Shown: positions 19,739-40,758 of the stretch, one piece after another
Numbering within the stretch: position 1 is the stretch's first letter
How the letters are laid out: each line of letters opens with the position of its first letter
From: a virus
Virus record (IMG/VR): IMGVR_UViG_3300030333_005697
Location: 1-44,365 of that record
Strand: one strand, 5' to 3'
Length of the DNA stretch: 44,365 nt
Translations under genes and position numbers: made by a program
The notes under the pieces: model-generated
The model's database searches: none
Told to the model about the DNA's origin: nothing
The model's input: only the letters and a program-made list of their open reading frames with translations

Positions 19739-20557
19739 ATGAGTAGTATGTTATCAAGATTTATCCGAAGACAGGGTAAAAATTTAAAAAAACATGGTCC
19801 TAAAATGCTAGGACTAGCTACATTAATACCAGGAAGTCCATTATCAGGTCTTTTTAGTGGACAATTAGCTAATATCGGTAAAGCCGCTACTGATGATTCT
19901 AAGGGGTGGAGTCCTTGGCGATACTTAGTAGGTGGTGATGTTACAGATGAAGAGGATAAAACAAAATGGGAACCTGGGGCATTAGGAAAATTTGGTAAGA
20001 ATTTTTTAGGAGCAGAAGATGACCAAGCTAATTTAGCTGGATTAGGCTTTGGATTACAAACATTAGGTACTATAGGTCAGTTTGGTTCTGGGTATGATAG
20101 AGGAACTGTAAATGTTTTAAACAGACAGTTAAATCCTCTTATACAAGCTCAAACAAGTATGCAAGATTTAGCTAAAGGGTATATGGACCCTAATAGTGCG
20201 ATGCATCAACAAATGCGTAGTGCTATACGAGGAGACGAATTAACTGCTATGAGCGATGTTATGGATAGAGCTGTAAGTCAATCAACAGGAACTTATGGAG
20301 ATGCTTCTCAAGGCAATATAAACATGAATGCTCTTTCTGATGCTGTAGCTAGAGGATTAGGACAGTATAGTGGTCAATTAGGCAAAGCTTATGATACAGG
20401 TGCAGGATTAATGACTCAATCTAGCAATTTAGCTAATGCTATAGCTCAAGCTAGAACTCAAAATATGTTAATGGCTCAGCAAAAAGCTCAAATGCCTTGG
20501 CAATATCTAGGGCAAACAGGATATGGATTAATGGAAAAAGCTTTAGCGGGTAAATAA
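19739..20557 (+). CDS. putative internal virion (ejection) protein
   Basis: A 272-residue protein with ribosome binding site AAGGAG. The basic N-terminus (residues 1-22) is followed by a hydrophobic, Gly-rich segment (LGLATLIPGSPLSGLFSG), further Gly-rich stretches (about 100-125), and a C-terminal helical half rich in A, Q and M (AQARTQNMLMAQQKAQMP). This composition is typical of small podoviral ejection proteins such as T7 gp14, which insert into the outer membrane at infection. It begins the run of five to six genes that ends with the 3055-aa giant. Function is inferred from composition and order. Confidence 0.55.
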   Translation: MSSMLSRFIRRQGKNLKKHGPKMLGLATLIPGSPLSGLFSGQLANIGKAATDDSKGWSPWRYLVGGDVTDEEDKTKWEPGALGKFGKNFLGAEDDQANLAGLGFGLQTLGTIGQFGSGYDRGTVNVLNRQLNPLIQAQTSMQDLAKGYMDPNSAMHQQMRSAIRGDELTAMSDVMDRAVSQSTGTYGDASQGNINMNALSDAVARGLGQYSGQLGKAYDTGAGLMTQSSNLANAIAQARTQNMLMAQQKAQMPWQYLGQTGYGLMEKALAGK

Positions 20558-21462
20558 TGGCAACTGAATCACCTATATTAAAAGCAGCTATAGAACAAGC
20601 TAATAAAGCTAATGTTGGAATGGGTGGCTTTACTGGTTTTGGAAACCAATCTTCTGACGAATCATTTGGAGTTCAAGATGCTTTAAGAATGCAAGGAATT
20701 GGAACGACTCCATCTGAGGTTTTAGCTAATAATATGATGGAAGCTGAAATCAATAAAACTAATATGATGAATCAAGCTGCGCAAACAGGTGGTTTATTTG
20801 GAGCAATATTTGATACTCCTAAAGCAGAAACAGGATTTACTGTAGGAATGCCTAGATTAGATGCTACTGATAAAGCATTTACTGATTTTAATAGAAGTTT
20901 TAATAGAAAGTGGTATCAAACAAAAGGTATACGATTTGACTCATATGATGACTTTTTAAATACAGCAGCAGAACAAGGTTTTGGACTTCCAAAAGCTTTA
21001 GAAGAAGGTAGTATGGAAGTAGTTTTTGATAGTGATAAAAATACTTATATGTTACAACCTAGGAAAATGGAAGGTGATGCTACAGGAAGTTATAAAGGTA
21101 AGATAAATTTAAAAATAATTCACGATGCTAAGCCTGAGGATGAAGGGGGTTTAAGTAATGAGGCTTTTAACAAAAGATATAAAAAAGATAAATCTAATTT
21201 TATAAATAGTCGTGAATATGAATATCTTTCTGATTATTTACCAACATTAGAAGGAGGTACTTATCAGAAAAGAAGATTTTATGAAAGACCAGGTTATGGA
21301 TTAGGTGATGACTATGAGTATACAGGAGAAGATTTATCAGGAGTTAAAAATTGGGATAGAAGTGTTGTTGAAGAGGCAACAGGTCCACCAGCAATACCTA
21401 ATCCTAAAATTATTAAAGGACCAACTGGACCTATAAATTTAACCCCAGATACATTTGCATAA
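20557..21462 (+). CDS. hypothetical virion protein in the ejection cluster
   Basis: A 301-residue protein translated from a TAATG overlap. The N-terminal half has helices rich in A, N, M and Q (AIEQANKANVGMGGFTGFGN; NNMMEAEINKTNMMNQAAQT) and a Gly/Phe segment (GLFGAIFDTP). The C-terminal half is charged and rich in tyrosine and lysine, and ends in a Pro-rich tail (GPPAIPNPKIIKGPTGPINL). No transmembrane helix or enzymatic motif. An internal virion or ejection role is inferred from its neighbours. A short AT-rich gap (21463-21492) with ribosome binding site AGGAGA leads to the next gene. Confidence 0.5.
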   Translation: MATESPILKAAIEQANKANVGMGGFTGFGNQSSDESFGVQDALRMQGIGTTPSEVLANNMMEAEINKTNMMNQAAQTGGLFGAIFDTPKAETGFTVGMPRLDATDKAFTDFNRSFNRKWYQTKGIRFDSYDDFLNTAAEQGFGLPKALEEGSMEVVFDSDKNTYMLQPRKMEGDATGSYKGKINLKIIHDAKPEDEGGLSNEAFNKRYKKDKSNFINSREYEYLSDYLPTLEGGTYQKRRFYERPGYGLGDDYEYTGEDLSGVKNWDRSVVEEATGPPAIPNPKIIKGPTGPINLTPDTFA

Positions 21463-21492
21463 TTTAATGAAAAATTTTAAACAGGAGATATT

Positions 21493-22704
21493 ATGGCGAT
21501 AGGTGGTGTACCTACATTAGGAGATATAGATTGGAGAGGGCGAGCTCAGGAGTTAAAGCAAAGAAGGTCAACTGAGTTTGCTAATAGCTTTTTTAATGAG
21601 TTACAAAGCGAATTAATGGCATTTAAGCCTACTCTAACATGGGATGCTAGTAACCAAAAACTTATTTTTAAACCAGCGTTTGATGGACAAAGTTATAAAC
21701 AGCTTTTAAATGAAAATCAACTTTGGAATAAATATAATGCTGCAGCAAAAGCTGCAAATGTTCCTGTTGATATTAATTTCTTTAAAACACAAGTAGTTCC
21801 TTTTTATAAAACAAATTCTATTGAAGGTTTTAAACGTCAGATTGCTACATTAAAAAATCAGGGCATACCCAATGAGACATTCCATCAGTTATATAAAGAA
21901 GACCCTCAGTTTAAATCTTTTATACAAGCTTCTGCAGGTACAGGTGATGAAGTAATGAATCAAATTATATCTGAAGTAACTCCTAAAATTCAAATAGATG
22001 CAGGCCCTTTGGGATTAGCTATGACAGCTGCTGGTACAGGTGCTTTAGGTTACGGTGGTTATAAACTAGCGCCTAAACTTGTTCCTGAAGGATGGAAAGG
22101 TGCCGCTAGAGGAATTGGTGGATTTGGAGCAGCTACTTTAGCTGCTGGTATGTTAGGTGAAAAAGTAGGGCTTTCTCCTCAACAACAAAAACTAGTAGAT
22201 TATGGCCTTGCTGGAGCATTTGCAACAGCTCCTTTAGTAAGTTATGCAAGTCCTAAGTTAAAAGGTAGGCTTATAAATAATTTAATAGGTTATGAAAAAG
22301 GAGATTTAACTCTTAGTAAAGCAAGAAACTATAAATCAGATTTAGTAAAAAAAGCTAATGCTTTAGGCATTAAAGATGCAAAGAAAATGAAGATAGGAAA
22401 CCTTCAAACTTCTATTACTGATAAAGTTGGCGAACAAAGTCTTACTCAAACTAGAAAACAATTAAAAGAAGCTAATATAAAAACTAGCTATAAAAAACCT
22501 TCTGCTAAAATAACAGTGCCTAAATTTAAAGCTCCTAAAATCCCTGGTTGGAGAGGAACACTAGTAAGTGCTGCTCTTCCTTTTCTAGCTGAATACTTTA
22601 TGGGTGGAGATTCTGCTCCTAAAGCAGAAGTTCAAATGCCTGGTGAAGATATTGATGCAAGTCCACAATATAGCCCAAGTGATTATGTGAGTGTATATGA
22701 TTAA
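21493..22704 (+). CDS. putative membrane-active ejection protein
   Basis: A 403-residue protein. The N-terminal about 160 residues are soluble and charged. Residues about 170-250 hold two or three hydrophobic, Gly/Ala-rich segments (GPLGLAMTAAGTGALGYGGY; GIGGFGAATLAAGMLGEKVG; GLAGAFATAPLVSYA) that could enter a membrane. Another lies near the C-terminus (WRGTLVSAALPFLAEYFMGG), followed by an acidic Pro/Ser/Tyr tail. A lysine-rich linker (about 265-345) lies between. This combination in an AT-rich podovirus late block points to an injected, pore-forming virion protein. No known family is recognised. Confidence 0.55.
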   Translation: MAIGGVPTLGDIDWRGRAQELKQRRSTEFANSFFNELQSELMAFKPTLTWDASNQKLIFKPAFDGQSYKQLLNENQLWNKYNAAAKAANVPVDINFFKTQVVPFYKTNSIEGFKRQIATLKNQGIPNETFHQLYKEDPQFKSFIQASAGTGDEVMNQIISEVTPKIQIDAGPLGLAMTAAGTGALGYGGYKLAPKLVPEGWKGAARGIGGFGAATLAAGMLGEKVGLSPQQQKLVDYGLAGAFATAPLVSYASPKLKGRLINNLIGYEKGDLTLSKARNYKSDLVKKANALGIKDAKKMKIGNLQTSITDKVGEQSLTQTRKQLKEANIKTSYKKPSAKITVPKFKAPKIPGWRGTLVSAALPFLAEYFMGGDSAPKAEVQMPGEDIDASPQYSPSDYVSVYD

Positions 22705-23146
22705 TAACATAACAAATGAAATAACTGAAGCAAGACCTTATTGGCAAAATATTAGTTTAAAATATAATATGTGGAAAAGGTATCCTGCAGGCAATGAGTT
22801 TCTATTTGGTGGAGGTGGTGGAAGTAACCCTAATGTAGTTCCTATAGGGCTTGGAAAAGGTATACGGCCTACAAGTAAAACTCAATATGTAGCATCTAAA
22901 GTTCCGATGGGTGTAATAAAAGCAGAATTAGGAAATCAAGCGGCTAATTTAGCACTTACAGGTGAATTTGGTCCTAGTCTACCTGAAGGTTTATTGGGTT
23001 TTATAGATTATTTTAACCCTTTAACAGGAGGTCAAATTAATCCAATTAATCAAGCATATACTACTGAGCAACCTATAATGGGTGGAGAAGAAAATGATTG
23101 GGGAACTAATTGGGATATAACTCCAAGCAATGAAGCATCTTGGTAA
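22697..23146 (+). CDS. hypothetical protein upstream of the giant virion protein
   Basis: A 149-residue protein whose start overlaps the end of the preceding gene by eight bases. A GTG six bases upstream (22691) is an alternative start, and neither has a clear ribosome binding site. The protein is rich in G, N and P with aromatic residues (FLFGGGGGSNPNVVPIGLGK), contains MGVIKAELGNQAANLALTGE, and ends in an acidic W/N/E-rich tail (ENDWGTNWDITPSNEASW). It may be a small virion or assembly protein tied to the neighbouring ejection proteins. No domain recognised. Confidence 0.5.
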   Translation: MINNITNEITEARPYWQNISLKYNMWKRYPAGNEFLFGGGGGSNPNVVPIGLGKGIRPTSKTQYVASKVPMGVIKAELGNQAANLALTGEFGPSLPEGLLGFIDYFNPLTGGQINPINQAYTTEQPIMGGEENDWGTNWDITPSNEASW

Positions 23147-23159: not shown

Positions 23160-26100
23160 ATGTCAGAAAGTCCTTATCAAATATCGCATGCGTTAGGACA
23201 ACAAATAGATTCAGAACCTCAGTTTCAACCAATATTTGATGCTCAACAAACGCAAAATTTAATCCATAGATATGGAGAGATGCCTACTATATTCTCGCCA
23301 GAAGAATTAGAAGAAGTACAAAGACACGCATATCATCATAATATTCCAATGTATACAGGAGAATTTACCTTTGGTGAAGCTATTAAGCAATTTGGTCAAG
23401 GAGTATTTTCAGGATTTACTACATTTAATGTAGGTAAAGCACCTGATAATGAATACGAAGCAATAGCTAGAAGTATAGGTCATTTAGTTGGTTTTGCTCC
23501 TGGTATGGTAGCTAAACCTTTAACTAAGGTAAAAGCATTATCTGGATGGGCTCAAAAATTAGCTAGCGTTAAATCTGCTCCAATGTGGGCAGCTGAAAAG
23601 ATAAGAAAAAAAGCTGTTGATATTGCTGGACCTGCAATGAAAACTGCAGCAGAAGGTAAAGCTGGTGCTGTTAGCACTGTTGGTAAATTTTTAACAGGAA
23701 AGAAAGTATCGCATACATTAGAAGGTGCTTTTGACCTTGGTGTAGCTAGTGGTATATCTGCATGGCAAGGTGGTATAAATGAGATATTAAATGCAACATT
23801 TCATGGAGCTGCTGCTGGAGCTGTGTTTAGAAGTTTAGGAAACTATGTTAATTTAGGAGATGAAAAAGCAACTAAGTTAACAAGAGCATTAGCAGGTTCT
23901 TTGTATACAGGATTACAAGCAGAACATAGAGGAGCTACTACTCCAGAATTAGTATACGAATATTTATTAGGTGGATTCTTTGGTTATGGTGAGGCTCCTT
24001 ATTATAAAGCAGGTGCTCGAAAGTTTATGAAAGATTATTATAAGAAAAAAGGACCTAATGCAGAATTAGATATTACTACTAGCCCAGAGTTAATGGGAGA
24101 AAAATGGACTAAACTTGATAAGCTAGAACAAAAAGAAGTTAGAAAAATAATTAAAGAAGAAGTGTTAGGTGGTGGAGAAGTTGATGATAGATTAAAAATG
24201 GGTATGGATTTAATTCAAAGATTAGGGTATACCGATAAATATGGAAGAGTTACTAAAGAATCATGGGAAAAATTAAGAGAAACTTTAAGAGAAAAACCTT
24301 TTGAAGGATTAGAGGTTACTCCTGAAGGAACTCCAGTTAAACCTGCAGAGCAAAGACTTGTTAAGAAAATATCTGATTTAAATCTAAAGCTACAAAAAGA
24401 TAAAGGTAGACTTGCTAAGATTAAATCTGAGATGGATATAGAAGATACTCTCTTAAAAGAAACAGGAAAAAAGAATGAAGCTCTTTATGCTGTTTATGAA
24501 AAACAATCTGAAAGATTAACTGAGGATATAGCTAGAAACCAAAGCACTTTAGATAAACTCACTAAAAATATTGATGATAAAGCTATTATATCAGAAGGAA
24601 CTAAAAATGTAGATTCAGATATGGACCCTGGTGATAAGACTACTATTGTAAGAGTAGGAAAACCTGCTGAGCGATTTACCGATGCTCATTTAAAAGATTT
24701 ATACGATATAGATGTAGACCCTCAAACTAAATCTGATTTAAAATTAGTTATTGCTAAAAAAGTTGATGATGCTATTCAAAAAGAATCTAAGCCTCAAAGT
24801 GGAAAAACTCCTGATATTGATAGATTAGCAGAAGGTTTACAGAAAGATTTAGAAGTCTCTATTAGTCCTGAAGCAAGAGGGGAATTAAAGCAATTAATTA
24901 CTCGTACTAACAAAGGTATTCCTCAAAGATATATGAGGATTACATACGAGCCTGAAATAAAGCCTGATGAATTTCAAACAGGAAGAGACGAAAAGATAGT
25001 ATTTCAACCTATGTATTTAGATAGACCTATAACTAAAGCAGGCAATGTAAAAGACAATATAGAGCCTTTAAAAGTATTTGAAGATATTTATCTAAAAGAA
25101 AGCGGTGGTCAAATAGATAGTAAATGGGGTACTTTTGTACACCTTGACCATATGTCAATGAAGAATTTATCAGGACAATGGAAAGATTATACTTTGTCTG
25201 AAGTAAGAAAAAATAATCCCAAAGAATATAGAAAAGCTTTAGAGACAATAATTAAAAGCATGAATAGCAAGGATATAGGAATGTATCTTTTTGGAGGTCG
25301 TGGAGATGCAGATAAATTATTCTTTTTAAAGTATCATCCTAAAACAAATGCTAAAGAGGGTAATAGCTTTTTTAGGGCAAGTAAAATGGAATTTACCCCT
25401 GAATATAAAGCTGCTTATAAAATGTTTAGGAAGCAGTTCCCTAAGATACCCGAAAAAACGCTAAAAAAGATGTTTAAAGACGCTATTAAGTCAAATATAC
25501 TATATGATATGGGTGTGCAAGGATACAGCCTTACAAGGGCAAATTTCGACAAAATGTGGAAGTCTACTGAAAAAGGTGAATTTATAGGCAATGCTTTAGA
25601 ATATAATAAACGATTGCAAATACCTATTACTCCAGCTTGGCCAGGTAGTAAGACCTTAGCTGATAAAGTATTCAAAAATGACAAAGGGTATATGGAAGGT
25701 AAAGAAGGATTTAACTATGCTTTAGTAAAAGATGTAGATTTACCTCCTGCTCATAAAGAAAAGTTATTTAATCTATTAGCTGAGCAATATGTAGAAGGTA
25801 CAGATGGGTCTGTTATTGGCAGAAGAGATGTAATAAACTTTAATAATGAAGATGCGGGTAACCCTAAATCAGGTCAGAATAAAGCTTTTATTATTAGTCC
25901 TGATGCAGAGCATGGTGCTTTATTAGGTAAATTTATGTTCCATAAAGCAAGTCCTGAACTTAGTAGTTTAATGGAAAAAGCTAATATGCACTATCTTATT
26001 CATAATTCATCTGCTAAACAAAGAGGTACTAGGGAAGTTGGTACTTATACAATTACTCCTAAAGGAGAATTAAAGATTGATGCGCCTACATATACTCTTG

Positions 26101-29100
26101 ACCCCTCTCATATAAAATATAGTTATTCTGTAAAACAAAGTGCAGAAATGTATGAAGTTCCTCAAAGTATTCCTAAACAGTGGTTTTCTAACTTAAACAG
26201 TAAGGTTGCTTTTGCTCCTGTACACAAAGATATTATTAAAGATGTATTTAGTGAGACAATATCTAAATCTTATGAAGGTAATGCTGATTTTAATTTTGAA
26301 TTAGCTAGTTATTTAAAAGACCCTACTCCAGCTAAGTTAAATAGAATAATAAAGAATTTAGAGCAAGTAGGTGTACCAAATTTATTGGAAGCTATAAATA
26401 GTAATGAAGGAACTAAATTTGCTGATGCAGCTTATGAAAAGTTATTAAAGCTAAACAAAGAGATAGCTATTGAAGATGCAAGGGAAAATGGAATTAAAGA
26501 AAGTAGATTAAATGAATATCTCCAAGAAATAGATGACTTTAACTCTGTTACAAACAGAATGTTGCAAAGAGCTCATAAAGTTGCAAAAGGTAAGGATTTA
26601 AAAGCTGCAAGTATATATGCTCATAAATGGATTAGGAATTACAGATTAAATGTAATGAAAAATTATGTTATGAAAAAAGTAGCTAGCCCTAAAATAGGGA
26701 ATTCTGCAGCTGCTAGAATGAGACCTTATGATAAAGCATTAAAAATGGACTTAGGAAATACAAATCCTTTTTTAAAGCTATTAAATAAAAGAGATGATAT
26801 TTTCTTTTTAGATAATGATTATAGGCATATGCCTTTAAAAACTCATTTGGGCGGTAAATGGAAAAACACTACGTTAGGAGAATTGTGGGATGCTGTTCAA
26901 GACCCTATTGCAAAAAAACAATTTAAAGGAAGAGAATCTGAAGTAGAAGAAATATTTAGAGCTATGGTTGTTAGAGTTCCTATGGATTCTATATCTGGAG
27001 CCCATGCATTAAAATTTAGAGGTTTTACAGGTATAAATGGGCATGGGGTATTAATTCATCCTAGAGCTATGAGAGCGTTAGGTGGAGCTGACCTTGATGG
27101 AGATGAAGCATTTGTATACTTTGGTGGTAAAGATGCTAGAAATCAAGGTGCTGGAATGAAAAAAGAATGGAAGGATGCATTTGAAGCTAACAAAGAAGAG
27201 TATGTTGCTTATGTATCTAAAGACCCTACATTTAAAACTAAAAAAGGCGAACCTGGTTATGATTATTTATCAGTTGATAAGTATAATAAATTAAGTGATA
27301 GTAAGAAAAAACAGTATGTTAAATTTATTCCTGACCCTAAAGTTGGCTTTGCTAATAGACCTGATGGCAAATATCCTGAAGATATGACTATGGAAAAACT
27401 CCTAACTAAGGAAGCAGATGCTAATGTTAGGCTTGCTAAAACATCTAAAATAGCTATGTATTCTCCTAGTGTTCGATTAGATGTGTCAGAGAATGTTGTG
27501 AATAGTAGGCAGTTAATGGGAGGAGTCGTATCTATGACTCAAACTATGAAAAATGCCCATGATTTAATTGCAAATAAAAAGAACGGTATTGACAAAATTG
27601 AATTTATTGTAGAAGAAGGAAAAAATAAAGAACCTGTTGATTATATAGTAGAAGTTAAAGCTAGAACAGAAAAAGAATGGAATGATTACTCAAGAAGATT
27701 ATCAGCATCTATGACAGCCTTTACAGCAGACCCTATGGATACAGGAGGTACTAGGTCATATGACTTTTACTTTAAAGAATTACATGATTCGTATTTTAGT
27801 ATTAATTCTGTAAGAAGAAAACCTAAGGATAAAAAACATTTTAAAGCTTTAGACATAAAAGATATGGATTCGTTCTATAATCATTTTAATAAAGTTCAAT
27901 CTGATAAAGTGGCTCATATTTATAAACTAAAAAATGGATTATTAAAAAGTGTTATGGATATGAACCAAGCTTTATTTGGTAAAAATTATGAGCAAGGTAG
28001 AGTATGGAATGAAAAAGAAATAAGAGATAGATTAGATTTCTTAGAAAAAATGGACCCTGAATTACTTACTAATATATCAGCTCAACAAGGAAAATTATTA
28101 TCAGAAGCTCCAAAATGGACTGATGATATTTTTAATAAAATTAGTAAAGAGAAAGTAATAGACTTATATAAAGAAATGAATGTAATGGCTAAAGAAAATA
28201 AGTTTTTAGCAGGAATAATGGGTAGGTCAAGCTTTACTATACCTGAAAGTCAGTATGTTTTAAAAGTATTAGAAAACAATCTTCATGACCCTGTTTATAG
28301 AGAAGCTCTTGCTTTAGATAGTAATATATCTAGATTTGAAAGCTTGTTTGTAAATAAAGACGGTAAACCTAATAGACTAAAGTATAGACGACATGAAAAT
28401 GAAAGTCCTCAAGAATTTGTAAATAACATAAGAAATTTAACAGATGTAGAAAAATCTAGAGTATTAGACGATGTTTATCATAAAGCTCAAGATTATATGG
28501 TAAATGATATTCACGATATGGTTACTTTAAAAAGAATTGTAGAATTGTATAGCAAAAATAAAGAAAGTTTAACCCCTAAAAGAATACGGGAAATCTTTGA
28601 TGAAGTTGAAATTACAAAAAGAAGTCATTCTCAAATGAAAAAGGATAGGAATGATACAACTAGTTTCTATGAAATACGAAAGAATATGACTGAAAAAGAA
28701 CGTGCGTATTATGATTCGATAAAGAAAAAGGATAAGGAAATAACTGATAAAGAAAGAGCTTTTTTAGAAGCAAAAGAAAAACGTACAAAAGATATTAGTG
28801 CTGAATTAGACCAAGTTCAAATTGATAAAAAGATTAGAGCTTACAAAGAAACTTTATCTCCTGTAGAAAAAGATTTATATGACTATTTAATGTTAGGAAC
28901 TTATAACAGAAATGAAATGGCTCAAAAAGGTGCGGTAGATTTAGACAATCCTGAAATTAAAGCAGAATTTATTAAAAAGGGAGCTCGAACAAGTTTAACT
29001 CAAGTTGGATGGAATTCAAAATCTGTTAGTGTTAGAAATATTGATAAATTCATTAAAGACTATATGGATATATCAGCTAAAACATTCCAAGAAAACAAAA

Positions 29101-32100
29101 CAGAATTAAAAAGAGCTTTAGAATTATCTGAAAAGCTAGAAGATATAGAAGTTAAAGTTGACAATCAGGATGGCCCTGTTAAGTTATTTGAAAAGAAATC
29201 GCCTGAAGTAAAGGTTGAGAAATATGAAGAAGATTTAAGTGGTTATATAGGTCTTAGAACAGGCAAATTAAATCCAAAACAGCAAAAAGTTATCGATAGT
29301 TTAGCTGAGCATTTAAAGTATTATGAGAATGGTAAAACTTTAAAATTAAATGATATAACTAGAGGAATGTTTAATAAAGATTTAAATGCAATGAATTTCC
29401 AAGATTATAAAATAATGAATGAGGTTTTTGCAAGCCATAGACATGGAACTTTTGCTCAAAGATTATTTAAAGAAGCTTCTCCAGATATGAGACAAAGATT
29501 CTGGATGTTATTTCCTGAAAAAGTAACACAATCTATGATGAAATATGACATTGAATTTATCAAGTCTAAAGGAGCTTTTAAAACAGCAGATGGTAAATGG
29601 GTACAAGGTTGGATAAGGAAACCATCTTGGGTTCTGGAAGGTTTAATGGATTGGAATGGTAAACTGCGAGATATGGCTGTAGATTTAGGAGAAAGTTTAG
29701 AAAATGAGTTAAATACAACTCTTAGTTTTTATGTAGACGCAATGCCTGAAGGCAGACAATTAAGAAGGATTGCTGTATCTGAAATGGAATTAGGTAATAT
29801 TAAAAGAATACTATATGGTAAATCTCATCCCGAAGCTAATGGTGGTAGAGAGAAAGGTATGCCTGAGCGTCGAAATGATGCTAAAGGATATGCAGATAGT
29901 TATTTAAAAGAAATTCAAGGAGATTCTAAAGATTATAAAACAGCTAAACCTACAGGTGAAGCTAAGAGAATATTAGAAAAAACTTACAATATGGTTCATC
30001 CTGATGGTAAAAAAGAAAAGCTTACAGGATATGAGGTTGTTAAAAATATCAAAAAAACATATAGTGCTATGAATAAAAGAGCTCATGAAATAATAACAGG
30101 TGACCCTATAGCTTTAGACCCTTATAGAACAGGAAGTTTTTTTAATAAAGACCCTAATGAGCCTAAGTTAAATTGGAGAAAATTCATAGATGATATAGAA
30201 AACTTATATCAAACAGGACAAAAATTACCAACTAATATTGGGATTGATGGACTAAGACAGATAGCTAGGTCTATGATGCTTGATTTAGCGCCTACTGAAA
30301 ATATGCGTAAAAAATTAATGAAAACAAAGCTTTCAAAGACTAATAAATTAGATTATGATACTTACTACCCTCATATATTTGGAAGCATAAAAGCAGCAAA
30401 AGAAAATCTAAATAACGCTTTAAAAAGAATTAATGAAGATAGTTCTATGTCTCCTGAAAAGAAAGATTTAGAAGCAAAGAAAATTATGATGAGAACTCAT
30501 AATCTTACAGGAGATTGGGTTGACCCTAATGGAGAACTTTATGATGCATATGATAGAGCTGCTGAGCAAATACTGTTATCTAAAAATGCAAAAGAAGAAA
30601 ACTTTAGTTGGTGGAATAGTAATCAGAAAATGGGGAGTATGAACTCTCGTAATACGCATCTTCCTGGATGGGATATAGGTAGAAACTCATATGAAACTTA
30701 TTTAAGAAATATAGGGAATACATATTTTAATCAAATGAATCAAATATTTTCTCGCCATACTATTGAAGCATTTAAACAAAGAATGTCTGATAGGAAGATA
30801 GGTCATAATTGGGATTTAGAAAAAACAGGTTATTTTAGAGATGCTGATGGTAAGAAAATAAAAACTAGTTTATTAGACCATTGGGTAAATTATTTAAAAT
30901 TATACACTTCAGATGCTATGGGTAATCCTAGTATTATACCTGAAAAGATTTTTAGTGACCCTGCTATGAAAATAAAGGGTACTCCATATTATTGGTGGGC
31001 AGATAATAGAGTTAAGAAAAAGATGGAGCATGCTAAAAAAGTTATTTTAGGTGAGAAAAAATCTGAATATCCTCATCTTGATAAATTAATGGAAAAAATG
31101 GACTATGCTACACTTAATAAGTGGTCAACTTTAGAAGCTAAATTCGAACTAGCATCTTTACTTGCTCATCCCAAATCAGGAGTTGGTAATATATTTGGTG
31201 GTAGTATGCACACAATACAGAGTGCAGGACTAGAGTATTTTAAAAAAGGAAGAAGCTTAAAATACTTAAATAAAATAGACCCTAGTTTAAAAACAATGGA
31301 AGATGTCGATGCTTTAGTAACTTCTCAAGGAGTTATTCCTGAGTTTTTAACATACCAATTTGGTATAGACCCTAAAGTAAGAAAAGCAAACTTAAAAGAT
31401 TTTTCTAGAGATGTTGGTAAGAAAATGGATAAATCTGGAAAGCTAGATGAAGTAACTTTTAAAGAATTAATTAAAAAGCATAAAGTAACAAAACCTCTTA
31501 TGGATGCAGCTTCTTGGTTTATGTCTAAGCCAGAAAGAATTTTAAGAAGAGATGCATATATGGCTCATTTAGTAAGGGCATATGAAATGTTTGATGGAGC
31601 TCTTGATATTAAACATCCATTTTTAGTTGAAATAGCTAAAAAAGGGGTTAAGGCAACTCAGTTCTTATATAATGCTCCTTATAGACCTGCTTTCTCTAGG
31701 TCAGCTTTAGGAAGAGTAATGACTCGTTTCCAATTATGGCAATGGAATGCTGTTAGATTTAGAAATGATGTTGCTAGAGAAGCTAAATTATACGGTATAG
31801 CAGAAGGTACCCCAGCATTTGAAAGATTCAAAAGAACATTACAAGCTGATATGTTAGTGTTTGCATTAGGTAATGCATTCGCTTATTCTATATTCGATAC
31901 CTCTATGCCAGCTCCTTATGCTTGGTATCAAGATACAGCAGATTGGTTGTTTGGTAATGAAAGTGAAAGAGATAGGGCTTTCTTTGGTGAATATCCTACT
32001 GCTATAGCTCCTTTAAAATTAGTATCTCCTCCTGTATTAAGACATCCTTTAGCTATTACTAAAGCTTTATATACTGGAGATTGGGAACGATTTGCACATT

Positions 32101-32327
32101 ATCATGCATATACTATGTTCCCATTTGGAAGAATAGGAAAAGATTTTTCTCCATTTGTACCTAATAGTTTAATTGATAATCCTTTAAGCTTAGTTGATAA
32201 ATGGACAGGTATTCCTCTACAAAGACTATCTAGAGAATCTAAAAAAATGAGAACAGGTGAAGGAGCTTGGTATCCTTGGAGTCCTCATGGAGCTGAAAGA
32301 AAATTTAGATTGGAGAATATTGAGTAA
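23160..32327 (+). CDS. giant virion protein with a DPBB-type RNA polymerase core
   Basis: A 3055-residue protein, about a fifth of the window. Residues about 60-280 are Gly/Ala-rich and partly hydrophobic, like membrane-penetrating ends of ejection proteins; 380-480 are coiled coil. The centre carries RVP (1272-1274), then HPRAMRALGGADLDGDEAFV (1300-1319). The acidic D1311-L-D1313-G-D1315 corresponds to the metal-binding DxDGD of the second double-psi beta-barrel of cellular beta', YonO-like, QDE-1-like and crAss-phage RNA polymerases, with HP at the same distance upstream as in beta'. A candidate first barrel lies near TDGSVIGRRD (881-890), LGKFMFHKAS (922-931) and AKQRG (952-956), offering lysines of the type that line the active site. 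The C-terminus (about 2690-3055) has APYRPAFSRSALGRVMTRFQ (2839-2858) and hydrophobic segments as in other giant phage polyvalent proteins. Predicted role: packaged, injected RNA polymerase for early genes. The DxDGD match is seen; polymerase activity is inferred. Confidence 0.75.
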   Translation: MSESPYQISHALGQQIDSEPQFQPIFDAQQTQNLIHRYGEMPTIFSPEELEEVQRHAYHHNIPMYTGEFTFGEAIKQFGQGVFSGFTTFNVGKAPDNEYEAIARSIGHLVGFAPGMVAKPLTKVKALSGWAQKLASVKSAPMWAAEKIRKKAVDIAGPAMKTAAEGKAGAVSTVGKFLTGKKVSHTLEGAFDLGVASGISAWQGGINEILNATFHGAAAGAVFRSLGNYVNLGDEKATKLTRALAGSLYTGLQAEHRGATTPELVYEYLLGGFFGYGEAPYYKAGARKFMKDYYKKKGPNAELDITTSPELMGEKWTKLDKLEQKEVRKIIKEEVLGGGEVDDRLKMGMDLIQRLGYTDKYGRVTKESWEKLRETLREKPFEGLEVTPEGTPVKPAEQRLVKKISDLNLKLQKDKGRLAKIKSEMDIEDTLLKETGKKNEALYAVYEKQSERLTEDIARNQSTLDKLTKNIDDKAIISEGTKNVDSDMDPGDKTTIVRVGKPAERFTDAHLKDLYDIDVDPQTKSDLKLVIAKKVDDAIQKESKPQSGKTPDIDRLAEGLQKDLEVSISPEARGELKQLITRTNKGIPQRYMRITYEPEIKPDEFQTGRDEKIVFQPMYLDRPITKAGNVKDNIEPLKVFEDIYLKESGGQIDSKWGTFVHLDHMSMKNLSGQWKDYTLSEVRKNNPKEYRKALETIIKSMNSKDIGMYLFGGRGDADKLFFLKYHPKTNAKEGNSFFRASKMEFTPEYKAAYKMFRKQFPKIPEKTLKKMFKDAIKSNILYDMGVQGYSLTRANFDKMWKSTEKGEFIGNALEYNKRLQIPITPAWPGSKTLADKVFKNDKGYMEGKEGFNYALVKDVDLPPAHKEKLFNLLAEQYVEGTDGSVIGRRDVINFNNEDAGNPKSGQNKAFIISPDAEHGALLGKFMFHKASPELSSLMEKANMHYLIHNSSAKQRGTREVGTYTITPKGELKIDAPTYTLDPSHIKYSYSVKQSAEMYEVPQSIPKQWFSNLNSKVAFAPVHKDIIKDVFSETISKSYEGNADFNFELASYLKDPTPAKLNRIIKNLEQVGVPNLLEAINSNEGTKFADAAYEKLLKLNKEIAIEDARENGIKESRLNEYLQEIDDFNSVTNRMLQRAHKVAKGKDLKAASIYAHKWIRNYRLNVMKNYVMKKVASPKIGNSAAARMRPYDKALKMDLGNTNPFLKLLNKRDDIFFLDNDYRHMPLKTHLGGKWKNTTLGELWDAVQDPIAKKQFKGRESEVEEIFRAMVVRVPMDSISGAHALKFRGFTGINGHGVLIHPRAMRALGGADLDGDEAFVYFGGKDARNQGAGMKKEWKDAFEANKEEYVAYVSKDPTFKTKKGEPGYDYLSVDKYNKLSDSKKKQYVKFIPDPKVGFANRPDGKYPEDMTMEKLLTKEADANVRLAKTSKIAMYSPSVRLDVSENVVNSRQLMGGVVSMTQTMKNAHDLIANKKNGIDKIEFIVEEGKNKEPVDYIVEVKARTEKEWNDYSRRLSASMTAFTADPMDTGGTRSYDFYFKELHDSYFSINSVRRKPKDKKHFKALDIKDMDSFYNHFNKVQSDKVAHIYKLKNGLLKSVMDMNQALFGKNYEQGRVWNEKEIRDRLDFLEKMDPELLTNISAQQGKLLSEAPKWTDDIFNKISKEKVIDLYKEMNVMAKENKFLAGIMGRSSFTIPESQYVLKVLENNLHDPVYREALALDSNISRFESLFVNKDGKPNRLKYRRHENESPQEFVNNIRNLTDVEKSRVLDDVYHKAQDYMVNDIHDMVTLKRIVELYSKNKESLTPKRIREIFDEVEITKRSHSQMKKDRNDTTSFYEIRKNMTEKERAYYDSIKKKDKEITDKERAFLEAKEKRTKDISAELDQVQIDKKIRAYKETLSPVEKDLYDYLMLGTYNRNEMAQKGAVDLDNPEIKAEFIKKGARTSLTQVGWNSKSVSVRNIDKFIKDYMDISAKTFQENKTELKRALELSEKLEDIEVKVDNQDGPVKLFEKKSPEVKVEKYEEDLSGYIGLRTGKLNPKQQKVIDSLAEHLKYYENGKTLKLNDITRGMFNKDLNAMNFQDYKIMNEVFASHRHGTFAQRLFKEASPDMRQRFWMLFPEKVTQSMMKYDIEFIKSKGAFKTADGKWVQGWIRKPSWVLEGLMDWNGKLRDMAVDLGESLENELNTTLSFYVDAMPEGRQLRRIAVSEMELGNIKRILYGKSHPEANGGREKGMPERRNDAKGYADSYLKEIQGDSKDYKTAKPTGEAKRILEKTYNMVHPDGKKEKLTGYEVVKNIKKTYSAMNKRAHEIITGDPIALDPYRTGSFFNKDPNEPKLNWRKFIDDIENLYQTGQKLPTNIGIDGLRQIARSMMLDLAPTENMRKKLMKTKLSKTNKLDYDTYYPHIFGSIKAAKENLNNALKRINEDSSMSPEKKDLEAKKIMMRTHNLTGDWVDPNGELYDAYDRAAEQILLSKNAKEENFSWWNSNQKMGSMNSRNTHLPGWDIGRNSYETYLRNIGNTYFNQMNQIFSRHTIEAFKQRMSDRKIGHNWDLEKTGYFRDADGKKIKTSLLDHWVNYLKLYTSDAMGNPSIIPEKIFSDPAMKIKGTPYYWWADNRVKKKMEHAKKVILGEKKSEYPHLDKLMEKMDYATLNKWSTLEAKFELASLLAHPKSGVGNIFGGSMHTIQSAGLEYFKKGRSLKYLNKIDPSLKTMEDVDALVTSQGVIPEFLTYQFGIDPKVRKANLKDFSRDVGKKMDKSGKLDEVTFKELIKKHKVTKPLMDAASWFMSKPERILRRDAYMAHLVRAYEMFDGALDIKHPFLVEIAKKGVKATQFLYNAPYRPAFSRSALGRVMTRFQLWQWNAVRFRNDVAREAKLYGIAEGTPAFERFKRTLQADMLVFALGNAFAYSIFDTSMPAPYAWYQDTADWLFGNESERDRAFFGEYPTAIAPLKLVSPPVLRHPLAITKALYTGDWERFAHYHAYTMFPFGRIGKDFSPFVPNSLIDNPLSLVDKWTGIPLQRLSRESKKMRTGEGAWYPWSPHGAERKFRLENIE

Positions 32328-33712
32328 TGGCTTTAACTGAAGAACAACTTAATAAATTAAAAGCTTTAGCTGGAGGAGCTGCAGCCACAGGTCTTGGAGC
32401 TTATTCTTATAGTCAATTATCAGGTCAAGGTGGTTTATTAAATAAATATGCACAATATTCTGACAACTTTCTAAAAGGACATTATACAAAAGGTACATTA
32501 GATAAAGTTACGGGTTTACCTGTAAGGAAAGTAACCAATTTTGCAAAAGAATGGTCTAGAGCTACTGGAAGATTAGGTAAAAGTTTCTTTTCTCCTATTC
32601 ATTCTGTAACTCAAAGTCAAACAGGTATAAGTAGGAATGCTTATAATTTATATAATAATGCACAAAATCAAATAAATATGATAATTCAAGATTATATAGA
32701 AAATGATGTTATTAAACCTCAGTTTGCTCAACAAAAAATTAGAAATCTTGAAAAACAAGTTCATCATAAACTAGTAAATGATTATTCTAATAATTGGTTA
32801 TTTGGAACTAAAAGAAAAGGGGCTATAACTGAATACGGCTCTCAATTTGTTAAAAGAGCTTATCATAAGGATTTTATAAGAATAATGGGAGGAGAAGGTA
32901 ATGCTGGCTATATAGCTAATCAATGGCCTGGTATTGGCAGAGATTTTAAAACATTTGCACCTCTTCGATTTCTTGAATATAAAAATGTACCATGGGCAGA
33001 TACTATAAGAGGAGCTCAATTTGACAAAAAGTTTTATAATATAATGCAGGTTTTAAAGGAAAATGGTAAAAACCCTAATATGTTATTTGAAATGTTACAA
33101 TCTGAATTTCCAGAAATAAAACCAGAAATGACATCTTATACGAAAAATGGAAAAACACATTTTAAGATTCGATTTAATACACCTCCAAGCATTAGACCTA
33201 ATTACGATTGGGGTGGATATAACGCAGTAGGAATGTGGGATAGTCGTAAAATAGATAAAATAGCTATAGCTACCAGTGATATGAGAGATGTTCCTGGATA
33301 TAGAGGTAAATTTCCAGTTATAAACTTTAGTGCTCCTAAAGAAATTACTATAGTTGATGCAGCTAAAAAAGTTATAGAACCTCCAAAAGTTGCAGAAACT
33401 GTCTCTGAAGAATATGTAAGAGGACCTAATAAAAAAGGATTAACTCCTGAAGAATTTATGAATAAGAAAATAGAAAAAGCTAAGAAATTTAAAACTGGGG
33501 GAATGTCTCCTGTTTTTGATGAATCTCAGAATAAAGTTTTTTCTAGATACACTAATAATTATCAACGAAATTTTAATATTGCTAGAAAAAGCTTATCTAA
33601 TAGCTATAAATGGAACACTATAGCTCCTGTAGCTAAAAGTTTTGCTAAAAGAGGAGGTGCTTTAGGTGCACTTATATTAGGAGGACTTACTATTGCTGAC
33701 TATTTAGATTGA
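32327..33712 (+). CDS. putative ejection/virion protein, last late gene
   Basis: A 461-residue protein translated by TAATG overlap from the giant gene. Residues about 8-32 are Gly/Ala-rich and hydrophobic (ALAGGAAATGLGAYSYSQLS), the centre is basic and aromatic-rich with no catalytic pattern recognised, and the last about 20 residues (GGALGALILGGLTIADYLD) form a likely membrane segment. Basic body plus hydrophobic ends fits an internal virion protein that interacts with the injected giant. It ends tail-to-tail with the minus-strand block, the stops overlapping by 13 bases, and no separate terminator lies between them. Confidence 0.55.
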   Translation: MALTEEQLNKLKALAGGAAATGLGAYSYSQLSGQGGLLNKYAQYSDNFLKGHYTKGTLDKVTGLPVRKVTNFAKEWSRATGRLGKSFFSPIHSVTQSQTGISRNAYNLYNNAQNQINMIIQDYIENDVIKPQFAQQKIRNLEKQVHHKLVNDYSNNWLFGTKRKGAITEYGSQFVKRAYHKDFIRIMGGEGNAGYIANQWPGIGRDFKTFAPLRFLEYKNVPWADTIRGAQFDKKFYNIMQVLKENGKNPNMLFEMLQSEFPEIKPEMTSYTKNGKTHFKIRFNTPPSIRPNYDWGGYNAVGMWDSRKIDKIAIATSDMRDVPGYRGKFPVINFSAPKEITIVDAAKKVIEPPKVAETVSEEYVRGPNKKGLTPEEFMNKKIEKAKKFKTGGMSPVFDESQNKVFSRYTNNYQRNFNIARKSLSNSYKWNTIAPVAKSFAKRGGALGALILGGLTIADYLD

Positions 33713-33966
33713 TTTTTTGCCTTAGGTTCGGCACTATCTTTTTTTTCCTTTTTACCGTCCTCTATCTTTTCTTCGATAAATTTTATAAACTCTTCTTTAT
33801 TTCCACGAAACTCTGCGTAATTCAATATTAATGTTTCCATTCCTATTAAATGCTGATTAATATTTTGTATTTCTCTTATTATTGAAGATGTTGCTCCACC
33901 AATTTCATTTATTTGGTCTTGCATTACCTTTCTTGGATTTTGACTCATTTTTTTTGTTTTTGCCAC
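33700..33966 (-). CDS. 88-aa helical protein at the end of the early block
   Basis: The last minus-strand gene. I chose a GTG start at 33966 because AGGGAGG lies just upstream; ATG codons at 33996, 33948 and 33924 are alternatives. After a basic N-terminus the protein is a long helix with heptad-like spacing (INEIGGATSSIIREIQNINQ, then HLIGMETLILNYAEF) and ends in a lysine/glutamate-rich tail. It overlaps the upstream AT-hook gene in another frame by about 60 bases, and the convergent late gene at its 3' end. The coiled-coil nature suggests an oligomeric partner protein. Function unknown. Confidence 0.55.
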   Translation of the reverse strand: MAKTKKMSQNPRKVMQDQINEIGGATSSIIREIQNINQHLIGMETLILNYAEFRGNKEEFIKFIEEKIEDGKKEKKDSAEPKAKNQSK

Positions 33967-34060
33967 GAGGCCTCCCTGTTGGTTTTCTATATCCATATAT
34001 AGTGTTATTAATTCTTCTGACTAATCCCCAAAGAATTCTTAATTCGCTTTTATTACTCAT
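33905..34060 (-). CDS. 51-aa AT-hook-like basic peptide
   Basis: An open frame from ATG at 34060 (TAGGAAAT upstream; the ATG overlaps the stop of the preceding gene) to TGA at 33905. The product starts MSNKSELRILWGLVRRINNT and continues RKPTGRPRGKNKKNESK. PTGRPRGK is an AT-hook core (GRP flanked by basic residues), which binds the minor groove of AT-rich DNA, fitting this AT-rich genome. Its 3' part overlaps the next gene in a different frame. The codons encoding GRPRG also create the ribosome binding site used by that gene. DNA binding is inferred from the motif. Confidence 0.55.
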   Translation of the reverse strand: MSNKSELRILWGLVRRINNTIYGYRKPTGRPRGKNKKNESKSKKGNARPNK

Positions 34061-34307
34061 CGATATTTCCTATTTCCATATCTTTAACTAAGCGACCTTG
34101 TTTGTATTTTTCGACTTTTAGTATTTTTCCATTTTCATTATAATAATACCAATAGCCACATTTAAATTTATTTATCTTTAAACCCTTACTTTTTAACTGT
34201 CCATTTTTATAAAAAGTATTGACTTTAGTAGTATCATTATTTGTAACATTAAACTTTGTTACAGCACTTAGACTAATACCTATTAATGCAATTATTATTA
34301 TCTTCAT
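34053..34307 (-). CDS. secreted YwqK/MORN-repeat-like protein
   Basis: An 84-residue protein with an N-terminal signal-like segment (MKIIIIALIGISLSAV) followed by polar sequence and two short beta-hairpin repeats: TFYKNGQLKSKGLKINKFK and YYYNENGKILKVEKYKQGRL. These fit the YwqK/MORN-like pattern (x-x-Y-x-N-G-x-L-K-x-x). It would be exported or periplasmic. Ribosome binding site AAAGGG precedes it. Proteins of this repeat type occur near toxin/antitoxin genes and in envelope proteins, so an action at the host envelope is possible. The assignment is moderate. Confidence 0.6.
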   Translation of the reverse strand: MKIIIIALIGISLSAVTKFNVTNNDTTKVNTFYKNGQLKSKGLKINKFKCGYWYYYNENGKILKVEKYKQGRLVKDMEIGNIDE

Positions 34308-34600
34308 TTAAATACCCTTTTTATTATTTTATCCATATTATCAACTGACTTCTTTCTTTCTCTATACATTTTATCTAATTTAATATCAAGCTCTAATTTG
34401 CGATTTGCAGGCATCTTTTTCTCTACCTTATGCTCACCCCTATTGATAATAGATTGTAGCCTAGAGACCTCTTTTTGGAGCTCACAGCAGTATTCCCATA
34501 TCTCTTCTATGTAGTTCTGAGCTTTAATCCTTGCTAAATGCTCGTATCTATACTCTTCTTCTAATGTTAGCTTACATGGTTTCTTCGAGACTTTTTTCAT
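34304..34600 (-). CDS. 98-aa coiled-coil protein
   Basis: An almost fully helical, highly charged protein: a basic head (MKKVSKKPCKLTLEEEYRYE), then about 45 residues of amphipathic helix (IEEIWEYCCELQKEVSRLQS) and a basic C-terminal helix. Ribosome binding site AAGG at good spacing. It overlaps neighbours by a few bases on both sides, as in a translationally coupled early operon. No domain is recognised. It could bind host proteins or nucleic acid through its basic segments. Confidence 0.6.
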   Translation of the reverse strand: MKKVSKKPCKLTLEEEYRYEHLARIKAQNYIEEIWEYCCELQKEVSRLQSIINRGEHKVEKKMPANRKLELDIKLDKMYRERKKSVDNMDKIIKRVFK

Positions 34601-34835
34601 CTTTTACCTTATATAGTTTATAAAATAGTATTTGTTTGCCCCATTTATTATCAAATGTCCAAACTTCAAGCTCATGCTTAATTCCTGATACTTCTATTGT
34701 ATTTGACCATAATGGTTTGATAGTTCCAAAACGACCAGCTTTTGTTTCTTTACCTCGCCATTTACCTGTTAATTTATCAGGCCTCATAGCGTTAGTGTTT
34801 TTATTTAAGAAGCCCTCGCTTACTAATTGTTTCAC
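34572..34835 (-). CDS. 87-aa hypothetical protein (GTG start)
   Basis: The start is a GTG with ribosome binding site AAGGAAAT seven bases upstream. The N-terminus (RPDKLTGKWRGKETKAGRFG) is basic; the rest is beta-rich with tryptophans (IEVSGIKHELEVWTFDNKWG, then KQILFYKLYKV). It looks like a small beta domain with a basic face. It overlaps both flanking genes in the early operon. Family not recognised. Confidence 0.6.
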   Translation of the reverse strand: MKQLVSEGFLNKNTNAMRPDKLTGKWRGKETKAGRFGTIKPLWSNTIEVSGIKHELEVWTFDNKWGKQILFYKLYKVKDEKSLEETM

Positions 34836-34965
34836 TATATTTCCTTATTAATTTATCTACCTTGTCTTGATTGACGAAATCAGACTTTTTGTAATTTTTC
34901 AGAAGATACAATCTTAATCGGTCTTCTGCTTTCTTTGCCTTTTCTTTTAGACTTTTTAACGACAT
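34801..34965 (-). CDS. 54-aa lysine-rich helical protein
   Basis: I start this at ATG 34965, preceded by AAAGGTAAG, rather than at an upstream in-frame ATG at 35073. The upstream DNA is better explained by the zinc-ribbon peptide in another frame. The product (MSLKSLKEKAKKAEDRLRLY and onward) is a basic amphipathic helix with a second helix near the end (NQDKVDKLIRKYSET). No further annotation is possible from the sequence. Confidence 0.55.
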   Translation of the reverse strand: MSLKSLKEKAKKAEDRLRLYLLKNYKKSDFVNQDKVDKLIRKYSETISKRGLLK

Positions 34966-35005
34966 TTTTCTTACCTTTCTGAGAGTACCTCCCAGATATA
35001 TCATG

Positions 35006-35101
35006 TCAATTCTCAGCGTACCCACATTGAGTACACTGATAATGACAGTCTTGCGCATATACTTGCTGTCCACATGAAAAACATTGCTTTATTTCTATCA
35101 T
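35006..35101 (-). CDS. 31-aa zinc-ribbon microprotein
   Basis: A minus-strand frame from ATG at 35101 to TGA at 35006 encodes MIEIKQCFSCGQQVYAQDCH followed by YQCTQCGYAEN. CFSCG and CTQCG are two zinc knuckles with the C-x2-C-G form, separated by 14 residues, as in tiny rubredoxin-like or DksA-like ribbons. The cysteine pattern makes chance unlikely, although no strong ribosome binding site is seen. It lies just downstream, in the direction of transcription, of the structured region at 35136-35434. Zinc and nucleic-acid or protein binding are expected; function unknown. Confidence 0.6.
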   Translation of the reverse strand: MIEIKQCFSCGQQVYAQDCHYQCTQCGYAEN

Positions 35102-35135
35102 AAGGACTATAAATATACTATTAAATACATATACA

Positions 35136-35259
35136 TAGCAAGTACAAAAGTTAGGTTTTAAAGGTTAAGGAAGGGCTATGAACCCTCGATACAAACCCCC
35201 TATGGCTCACGCACTAAGGTTCCTAACTTATCAGGTAGGTTAAGCCTGTGTACTTGCTA
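35136..35259. ncRNA. candidate structured RNA with an 11-bp closing stem
   Basis: TAGCAAGTACA (35136-35146) and TGTACTTGCTA (35249-35259) are a perfect 11-bp inverted repeat. Inside, AAGTTAGG (35148-35155) pairs perfectly with CCTAACTT (35222-35229). CAGG/CCTG (35232-35235 and 35245-35248) abuts the closing stem, and AGGG/CCCT (35172-35175 and 35183-35186) encloses a 7-base loop. The result is a multi-branch junction of about 124 nt with no coding frame. Flanking genes are on the minus strand, so a minus-strand transcript is likelier. Confidence 0.55.
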
Positions 35260-35265
35260 ATTTAA

Positions 35266-35366
35266 TGGGAAGCATCTTTTCGACGAGATATTCTTCACTA
35301 ACATACATTCAATTTAAATTATAATATTATTATTTAACTTTACTATGCTAGTTTAGCTACTTCCCA
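35266..35366. repeat. inverted repeat enclosing an AT-only core
   Basis: TGGGAAG (35266-35272) pairs with CTTCCCA (35360-35366). The interior includes about 30 bases of almost pure A+T (35310-35340). It lies between two stronger stems. The AT-rich interior could be a DNA-unwinding site or simply the loop of the RNA element. No coding potential was seen. Confidence 0.35.
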
Positions 35367-35373
35367 AATCTTC

Positions 35374-35434
35374 GGGCAGAGTAATTGAAAGAGTGTAGGT
35401 TGTCACGAGGAGTTGTGACTGTGCGACTCTGCCC
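35374..35434. ncRNA. stem-loop directly after the HNH gene
   Basis: GGGCAGAGT (35374-35382) and ACTCTGCCC (35426-35434) form a perfect 9-bp stem. An inner hairpin GTCAC/GTGAC (35402-35406 and 35415-35419) lies inside. The element starts seven bases after the HNH nuclease stop on the minus strand. It could be a transcript end, a processing structure, or a small RNA. No T-run follows, so a plain intrinsic terminator is not favoured. Confidence 0.5.
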
Positions 35435-35440
35435 TAATTT

Positions 35441-35929
35441 TCAAAAAACTTCTGATTTTGCTAACTTTCTTAAAACATACTTTACCACATCTTCTGGTAA
35501 TTTAGCAAGACTTTTTAACAATTCTCTATAATCCTTGTCTGTTAAAGGGCCTTTTCTTGTATTACATCTTCCACAAACTATGTGTAGGTTATCAATAATC
35601 GAGCCACCACCCATAGAAAGAGGAATGATATGGTCACAAGCCATATTGCTGACCACCAAAGTCTCATCGCAATATAAGCATTTTGTCCCATAAGATTTAT
35701 AAAGTAAGTTTCTAAGTTCTGTAAGCGATACTTTAAATTCGACTTCATATTCTTTGCTCCTCCTTTTTAAAGAAGATTTTAGTGTCGAAGATTTCTTCAT
35801 CATTCTGTGAAATATCTTTTTAGAATGATTTTTGTGAATCGGAAGGAGCTTCCTCATGTAAAGCTCCTCCCAATTCACTTGTTGCTTCCTCCTAGTCTTT
35901 TTCGATTTGGTATTCCGCATATTTACCAT
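35441..35929 (-). CDS. HNH endonuclease
   Basis: A 162-residue protein with a very basic N-terminal half (residues 1-65), for DNA contact, and a C-terminal HNH (beta-beta-alpha metal) nuclease domain. C84-x2-C87 and C119-x2-C122 bind structural zinc. D99-H100 (ACDHIIPLSMGGG), N114 (DNLHIVC) and N123 (RCNTRKG) are the catalytic and metal-binding residues. It probably nicks or cuts double-stranded DNA, perhaps as a free-standing homing-type or packaging-linked nuclease. It lies in the early block far from the terminase, which favours a homing or host-DNA role. An ATG three codons downstream is an alternative start. Confidence 0.85.
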   Translation of the reverse strand: MVNMRNTKSKKTRRKQQVNWEELYMRKLLPIHKNHSKKIFHRMMKKSSTLKSSLKRRSKEYEVEFKVSLTELRNLLYKSYGTKCLYCDETLVVSNMACDHIIPLSMGGGSIIDNLHIVCGRCNTRKGPLTDKDYRELLKSLAKLPEDVVKYVLRKLAKSEVF

Positions 35930-36101
35930 TTGGATTTAGGTTAACTATATTATAAGTCTTACCTTTATATCCATTTCTTAATGTATGTATTATTGCGCCT
36001 AATCTCATTGTATGGTAGCTTCGATAGGCTTCCATTGGAGTTAGCTTTAGTCCACTAAGCAGATGCCTCAACACCCGCTTCGTTTTCGATTCTCTCGACA
36101 T
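35892..36101 (-). CDS. small helix-turn-helix protein
   Basis: A 69-residue basic protein. I start at ATG 36101, which has AGAGG five bases upstream, rather than at the GTG two codons earlier. The sequence KRVLRHLLSGLKLTPMEAYR followed by SYHTMRLGAIIHTLRNGY has the shape of the short phage winged helix-turn-helix family: first helix, LTPMEA turn, recognition helix with RLGAIIHTLR, then a beta-wing (YNIVNLNPNGKYAEYQIEKD). It probably binds DNA. It overlaps the HNH gene at its 3' end and the preceding gene at its 5' end. An early regulatory role is inferred. Confidence 0.7.
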   Translation of the reverse strand: MSRESKTKRVLRHLLSGLKLTPMEAYRSYHTMRLGAIIHTLRNGYKGKTYNIVNLNPNGKYAEYQIEKD

Positions 36102-39332: not shown

Positions 39333-39352
39333 TTTCTACCTCTTTATTTAAC

Positions 39353-39389: not shown

Positions 39390-39402
39390 TTTATTCCTAC
39401 AA

Positions 39403-39600: not shown

Positions 39601-39623
39601 TACTATCTCCTTTATTTTTAGTT

Positions 39624-40740: not shown

Positions 40741-40758
40741 GTTATTCTCCTTTATTTT

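Follow-up and report, generated by a model that had tools for sequence, protein, structure and literature searches.

The window (the whole stretch of DNA analysed in this study, a virus record of 44,365 bases) contains an ORF for a giant protein of 3055 aa, and we found that a large central part of this protein is related to RNA polymerases (RNAPs). We propose, with a probability of about 85%, that residues ~700-1780 form a single-chain, two-barrel, DNA-dependent RNAP that is packaged, injected and used to transcribe the early block. The proposal starts from the motif, its conservation, the predicted fold, the homology, the single copy per phage contig and the late-gene position, all of which were observed here; catalysis, packaging, injection and early use are inferred. 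It should be noted that neither catalysis nor presence in the virion is directly proven and that the protein resembles known RNAPs only very weakly in sequence; these points are part of the evidence against the proposal. The features are listed in Table 1.

Table 1. Features of the window and of the giant protein, with the basis of each assignment
Feature	Position	Strand	Basis
Terminase large subunit, P22-type portal, major capsid protein	1255..7403	+	phrog_38, phrog_156, phrog_1328; upstream of giant gene
Four ORFs (272, 301, 403, 151 aa), candidate internal/ejection proteins	19739..23146	+	Position and composition only
Giant ORF, 3055 aa, with RNAP core inside	23160..32327	+	Translation; relatives in >100 IMG/VR loci
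N-terminal extension, residues 1-699, no recognised domain	23160..25256	+	Sequence
RNAP core as modelled, residues 700-1780	25257..28499	+	AlphaFold2, Foldseek; single copy per contig in 29/29 relatives
First (lysine, beta-type) barrel region, residues ~884-987	25809..26120	+	Strand cluster of model; collinear with gp66
Helical connector between barrels, residues ~1000-1265	26157..26954	+	Model
Second (aspartate, beta'-type) barrel, RVPMDSxSGA ... HPRAMRALGGADLDGDEAF	26955..27149	+	Alignment to gp66 R-I-P ... GSDFDID
Putative catalytic aspartates D1311, D1313, D1315 (DLDGD)	27090..27104	+	Sequence, conservation, alignment to gp66
Bridge-helix-like helices, residues 1436-1471, conserved R-x-x-L-G	27465..27572	+	Model helices, conservation; bridge-helix identity inferred
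Trigger-loop-like segment, residues 1521-1545, invariant D1524-P1525	27720..27794	+	Model, conservation; assignment inferred
C-terminal extension, residues 1781-3055, helical	28500..32324	+	Model of residues 1858-3055
Replication and early-type gene block, presumed template of injected polymerase	33700..44203	-	ORFs; promoter link not shown
DnaB/primase-like	36285-38042	-	Early-type block
RecA/Sak4-like ATPase	38637-39332	-	By eye

Translation of the giant ORF placed RVP at residues 1272-1274 and HPRAMRALGGADLDGD at residues 1300-1315, exactly as the initial annotation had read them; the longer stretch consists of HPRAMRAL (1300-1307) and GGADLDGD (1308-1315). DxDGD is expected 0.058 times per shuffled copy of the 3055-aa protein, and R[VI]P followed by DxDGD 20-60 residues on was seen in 0.05% of the shuffles. 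A protein search first gave only three relatives with ~54-56% identity, and both full-length ones had DLDAD. Many further giant ORFs were then obtained by scanning IMG/VR with back-translated motif patterns, so that relatives are now found at more than 100 IMG/VR loci, which is a lower bound. The uninterrupted relatives (25 proteins) were 2724-3248 aa long, with a median of 2992, and the consensus of the motif-pattern members was RVPMDSxSGAHxLxFxGFTGxxGxGxLxHxRxMRALGGADLDGDxAF. Because the first back-translated patterns partly imposed the motif, IMG/VR was rescanned with the pattern RVPMDS-x-SGA, which sits ~35 residues upstream of DxDGD and does not require the aspartates. All of the distinct additional members (33/33) kept D-x-D-x-D, including 31 with DLDGD, one with DSDGD and one with DKDGD. 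This conservation excludes a chance origin of the motif. The motif had been read correctly as DxDGD, but its glycine is variable within the family and beyond: several relatives have DLDAD, and gp66 of a crAss-like phage has DFDID. The glycine of this motif is thought to be universal in cellular RNAPs. DLDAD was observed in six members (L002, L003, L027, L057, L106 and L140), and all of them retained the three aspartates.

In the alignment of 39 cores, which spans cores down to 20% identity with the window, the invariant residues were D882, G883, K908, K924, K953, R1272, P1274, D1311, D1313, D1315, R1439 and D1524. K908, K924 and K953 (alignment columns K209, K225 and K254) lie inside the strand cluster of the first barrel region, and K1006-Q1007 (columns K307-Q308), just downstream of it, were invariant in the alignment of 62 sequences. 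However, both alignments consist mostly of motif-pattern members; in them, independent evidence comes from the other residues only and not from the aspartates. The pattern of invariant residues fits an enzyme active site, although K908, K924 and K953 are so far only conserved lysines, and their equivalence to catalytic lysines was not shown. In single members, accessory domains are inserted within the polymerase core (alignment A6; for example, L102:6561-10133), including DprA/SLOG-like (phrog_768, E 4e-41; PF12694), acetyltransferase-like (phrog_1249) and DUF7831 domains. The insert of L102 is a domain common to the giant protein of the crAss-like phage cr272_1; the tblastn match between the two (E 5e-10) is due to this domain and was rejected as polymerase homology.

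The predicted structure leads to the same class of enzymes. AlphaFold2 modelled residues 700-1780 from the 62-sequence alignment with a pLDDT of 88.7 and a pTM of 0.87, and the strand clusters of the model (~884-987 and ~1267-1320) coincide with the barrels that the initial annotation had placed at residues 880-960 and 1270-1330. In a Foldseek search of PDB with this confident model, the only match at E<=0.001 was 6VR4, which is gp66 of the crAss-like phage phi14:2 (E=3.8e-8, probability 1.00). The other 49 PDB matches listed were all cellular or phage RNA polymerases, such as bacterial subunits including beta', RNA polymerase I and the RNAPs of P23-45/P74-26. The superposition of the whole chain on 6VR4 was loose (TM 0.36, rmsd 20), so the agreement holds at the level of domains, as expected if domains of the modelled protein move or differ. 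In the viral library BFVD, two unnamed proteins matched at E 1e-53 to 1e-42 (TM 0.71 and 0.60); after them came other proteins without a name and proteins of crAss-like phages, the latter down to E about 1e-10. Two BFVD entries without a name, A0A516LW39 and A0A516LAI4, match the core model closely in structure; the polymerase family seems to be already in UniProt without annotation. As modelled, the core has a fold of known-RNAP type, and the convergence of the aspartates in space was not measured.

Furthermore, the family was compared with the profile of the gp66 family using hhalign, and D1311/D1313/D1315 aligned with D1361/D1363/D1365 of gp66. The default run gave E=0.019 and four alternative alignments that were collinear in both proteins, with the lysine-rich region upstream of the aspartates also in collinear order. 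When only match columns were used (insert columns removed), the score was 51.5 (E=2.2e-4); block-shuffled profiles (150 in all) scored 18.6 on average (sd 3.3) and never above 35.5, and the reversed profile scored 24.7. The link to RNAPs that the initial annotation had drawn is supported by this alignment of the catalytic loop and by the predicted fold. In addition, the R of R-x-P is 39 residues upstream of the first aspartate in both the window protein and gp66. Other searches gave little: nothing meaningful was found in the PDB sequence search (hmmsearch) with the 62-sequence profile, the core and the C-terminus were unmatched when pieces of the window were searched against GenBank phages by tblastn, and the Pfam RdRP family (PF05183), which comprises cellular RNA-dependent RNA polymerases, matched residues 1044-1139 of the core at E=0.0018, below the cut-off. 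The suggestion of a distant branch agrees with the lack of PDB matches at the sequence level and with Pfam matches that were all sub-threshold. Another Pfam match below the cut-off, 'Terminase-T7_RNaseH-like' (E 4e-4 to 7e-4), fell in the helical connector and was taken as spurious. Fold, profile and conservation are consistent with one another and place the core, by prediction, among the single-chain RNA polymerases with two barrels, of the crAss/RdRP type, with catalysis inferred.

In the rest of the core, the helices at residues 1436-1471 and the segment with D1524-P1525 follow in the order expected for bridge helix and trigger loop, two assignments that are inferred. The N-terminal extension had no credible match to a Pfam or PHROG family; we infer from its glycine/alanine-rich stretches near residues 80-280 that it resembles an ejection or internal virion protein. 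The C-terminal extension is highly conserved near residues 2660-3010. Residues 1858-3055, which include some of the best conserved stretches of the whole protein, were predicted to be helical with moderate confidence (pLDDT 69), and this model had no PDB match at E<=0.001. Residues 2780-2865 were weakly tied to the end of phrog_11358, an uncharacterised family of giant phage proteins with 3431 positions, and this is a hint that the C-terminal module may be common to other giant phage proteins. No hydrophobic segment with a mean Kyte-Doolittle value >1.4 was found in the giant protein.

The core was present exactly once in each of 29 contigs (29/29). The portal family of the window was found in 28 of these 29 RNAP-bearing contigs, and so was a major capsid protein (MCP) similar to that of the window (42-96% identity); a thirtieth contig, L092, had a chance motif match without the core and was left outside the 29. 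Most long contigs of the family are 45-56 kb. Two contigs, of 48,129 and 49,279 bases, have one part of the MCP at each end, and this suggests that they are complete and permuted and that the genome size is near 48-49 kb. Crassvirales were absent from the best matches listed for the terminase large subunit, portal and MCP, and the carrier phages are, on this evidence, not Crassvirales-like. Thus, a crAss-type polymerase occurs in a different lineage with small genomes, as judged by the P22-type portal, the MCP, the contig size and the non-Crassvirales matches. A motif scan of 84,980 prokaryote genomes gave seven chance matches and no link to a host. The L049 contig (47,989 bases) has an MCP with 96% identity to that of the window (6024-7403), while the two polymerase cores share only about 50%; in terms of sequence identity, there is strong mosaicism between the capsid and polymerase genes of the two. 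Directly after the giant gene there is a 461-aa ORF (32327-33712, +). Among 21 other contigs, a relative of it was found only in the L003 contig; at the sequence level, what follows the giant gene thus varies.

If the proposal is correct, the conserved lysines would come from the first barrel, and the catalytic magnesium would be bound by the loop D1311-x-D1313-x-D1315 of the second barrel, which R1272-x-P1274 precedes as it does in other RNAPs. The helical parts on either side of the core may allow the protein to be stored inside the capsid close to the portal and to leave with or before the DNA, in the way proposed for the virion polymerases of crAss, N4 and P23-45. In the cell, the giant protein would then transcribe the early block without the host RNA polymerase. 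No early promoter motif was found in this study: a scan for sigma-70-like promoters gave 58 compared with 54 expected, which is uninformative, and repeats in the early block were rejected as promoters, as they look like ribosome-binding-site regions. By eye only, two other ORFs of the minus strand resemble known enzymes; the 226-aa ORF at 43130-43810 looks like an HD-domain SpoT/MESH1-like (p)ppGpp hydrolase (THALRIA...ILHDIIED), and the 162-aa ORF at 35441-35929 looks like an HNH endonuclease (CDHIIPLSMGG...NLHIVCGRCN).

The known system most similar to the giant protein is gp66 (6VR4) with its Crassvirales homologues. They share the single-chain two-barrel core, the spacing between R-x-P and D-x-D-x-D, collinear anchors in both barrels and the encoding of a giant protein in the structural gene block. 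However, Crassvirales genomes are ~100 kb and the window phages differ in contig size and portal type; the motif is GGADLDGD in the window and GSDFDID in gp66, sequence identity is very low, and the polymerase of the window lies mid-chain in ~3000 aa with a C-terminal helical region of its own. The RNAP proteins of crAss001 are capsid cargo and were proposed to exit ahead of the DNA (PMC10172136). Gp96 of the Thermus phage P23-45 is likewise a giant late protein with a two-barrel RNAP (motif DFDGD) and presumed injection; it is fused to the tape-measure protein, has been probed in virions and serves for the transcription of pre-early genes (PMC10770324). However, the core of gp96 is N-terminal in the tape-measure protein, with the motif at residues 779-783 of 5002 aa, and hhalign of the window family against gp96 did not align the motif or find profile similarity there. 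YonO and the QDE-1/RDR polymerases share the single-chain two-barrel architecture, in line with the weak Pfam RdRP match of the window, but they are not virion proteins. The vRNAP of N4 is a T7-type polymerase, the fold of which is unrelated to two-barrel RNAPs. No Pfam RNA_pol match, which would indicate a T7-type domain, was found in the giant protein; a contig-wide PF00940 scan was also empty, but its control was silent too, and absence elsewhere in the genomes is therefore not established. The N4-type (Schitoviridae) vRNAP is also a giant podoviral protein (~3500 aa) with the polymerase domain within it, is ejected together with the DNA and belongs to an ejectosome (PMC12633501).

These comparisons bear on whether the protein is packaged. 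The label 'virion protein' in the initial annotation is an inference from gene position, and presence in virions remains inferred; the four ORFs upstream of the giant gene had no PHROG match. Catalysis alone would not need packaging, and two-barrel enzymes that are not virion proteins exist in P23-45 and jumbo phages (PMC10770324, PMC7598289), so the window could encode an RNAP made in the cell for middle or late transcription. However, the gene lies in the late structural block directly after the ejection-like ORFs, the core shares its chain with about 2000 residues that are not polymerase, and the known giant fusions (crAss, P23-45 gp96 and N4) are virion proteins, whereas the nvRNAP of P23-45, gp64, is a compact separate protein of about 595-616 residues. 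We consider an unpackaged enzyme unlikely, and it is on the gene position, the ORFs upstream and the particle-borne precedents that the packaged and injected RNAP rests. By analogy, this suggests that these viruses may deliver a transcription machine of their own into the cell together with the DNA.

With regard to catalysis, the three aspartates, R1272/P1274 and the three lysines remain invariant though overall identity to the window falls to 20-35%. This points to selection on an active site and speaks against a catalytically inactive ejection protein with an RNAP-derived scaffold, a reading for which DLDAD in some relatives and the very large divergence from known RNAPs could be cited. In addition, gp66 itself has DFDID and its activity is reported (cited in PMC7886860). 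We regard loss of catalysis as very unlikely. Finally, short D-rich motifs are common and no RNAP was matched confidently or above threshold in the window protein by Pfam or PHROGs, but the idea of DLDGD as an unrelated acidic metal-binding motif (e.g. calcium-binding) of a tail or internal protein is scarcely tenable, since fold search, profile alignment and conservation all lead to RNA polymerases and nothing else.

To our knowledge, and within the searchable literature, the two-barrel virion polymerases described so far come only from crAss-like and jumbo phages and from one Thermus siphovirus. Single-chain two-barrel virion polymerases as such (phi14:2 gp66, P23-45 gp96) are thus not new; what this family adds is a further variant, in a podovirus lineage. 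We found no published description of this large lineage of uncultured bacterial viruses in the searchable literature, the coverage of which is incomplete. The family is large and diverse in sequence, and its occurrence in podoviruses of ~48 kb means that such enzymes are far more widespread than annotation suggests. It also provides a well-sampled branch that helps to place RNAi-type and crAss-type polymerases, and the coupling of DNA ejection with transcription becomes testable in a small genome. More tentatively, and with somewhat less than even confidence, we propose that in small non-Crassvirales podoviruses one polypeptide, encoded by ~1/5 of the genome, combines ejection machinery with a two-barrel RNAP that transcribes, and perhaps pulls in, the entering genome, so that early infection would be independent of the host RNAP.

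Two further groups of sequences were observed beside this family. L066 and L148 contain a second, more distant giant-protein family (RSPVGNPSGVLSLDFGGF...GGADFDGD) with ~20% identity to the core of the window, and it is probably a further branch of phage RNAPs. Meanwhile, open frames of ~900-1280 aa with GGADFDGD are present in other phages (L065, L067, L076 and L137), and they are candidates for single-chain RNAPs of another type.
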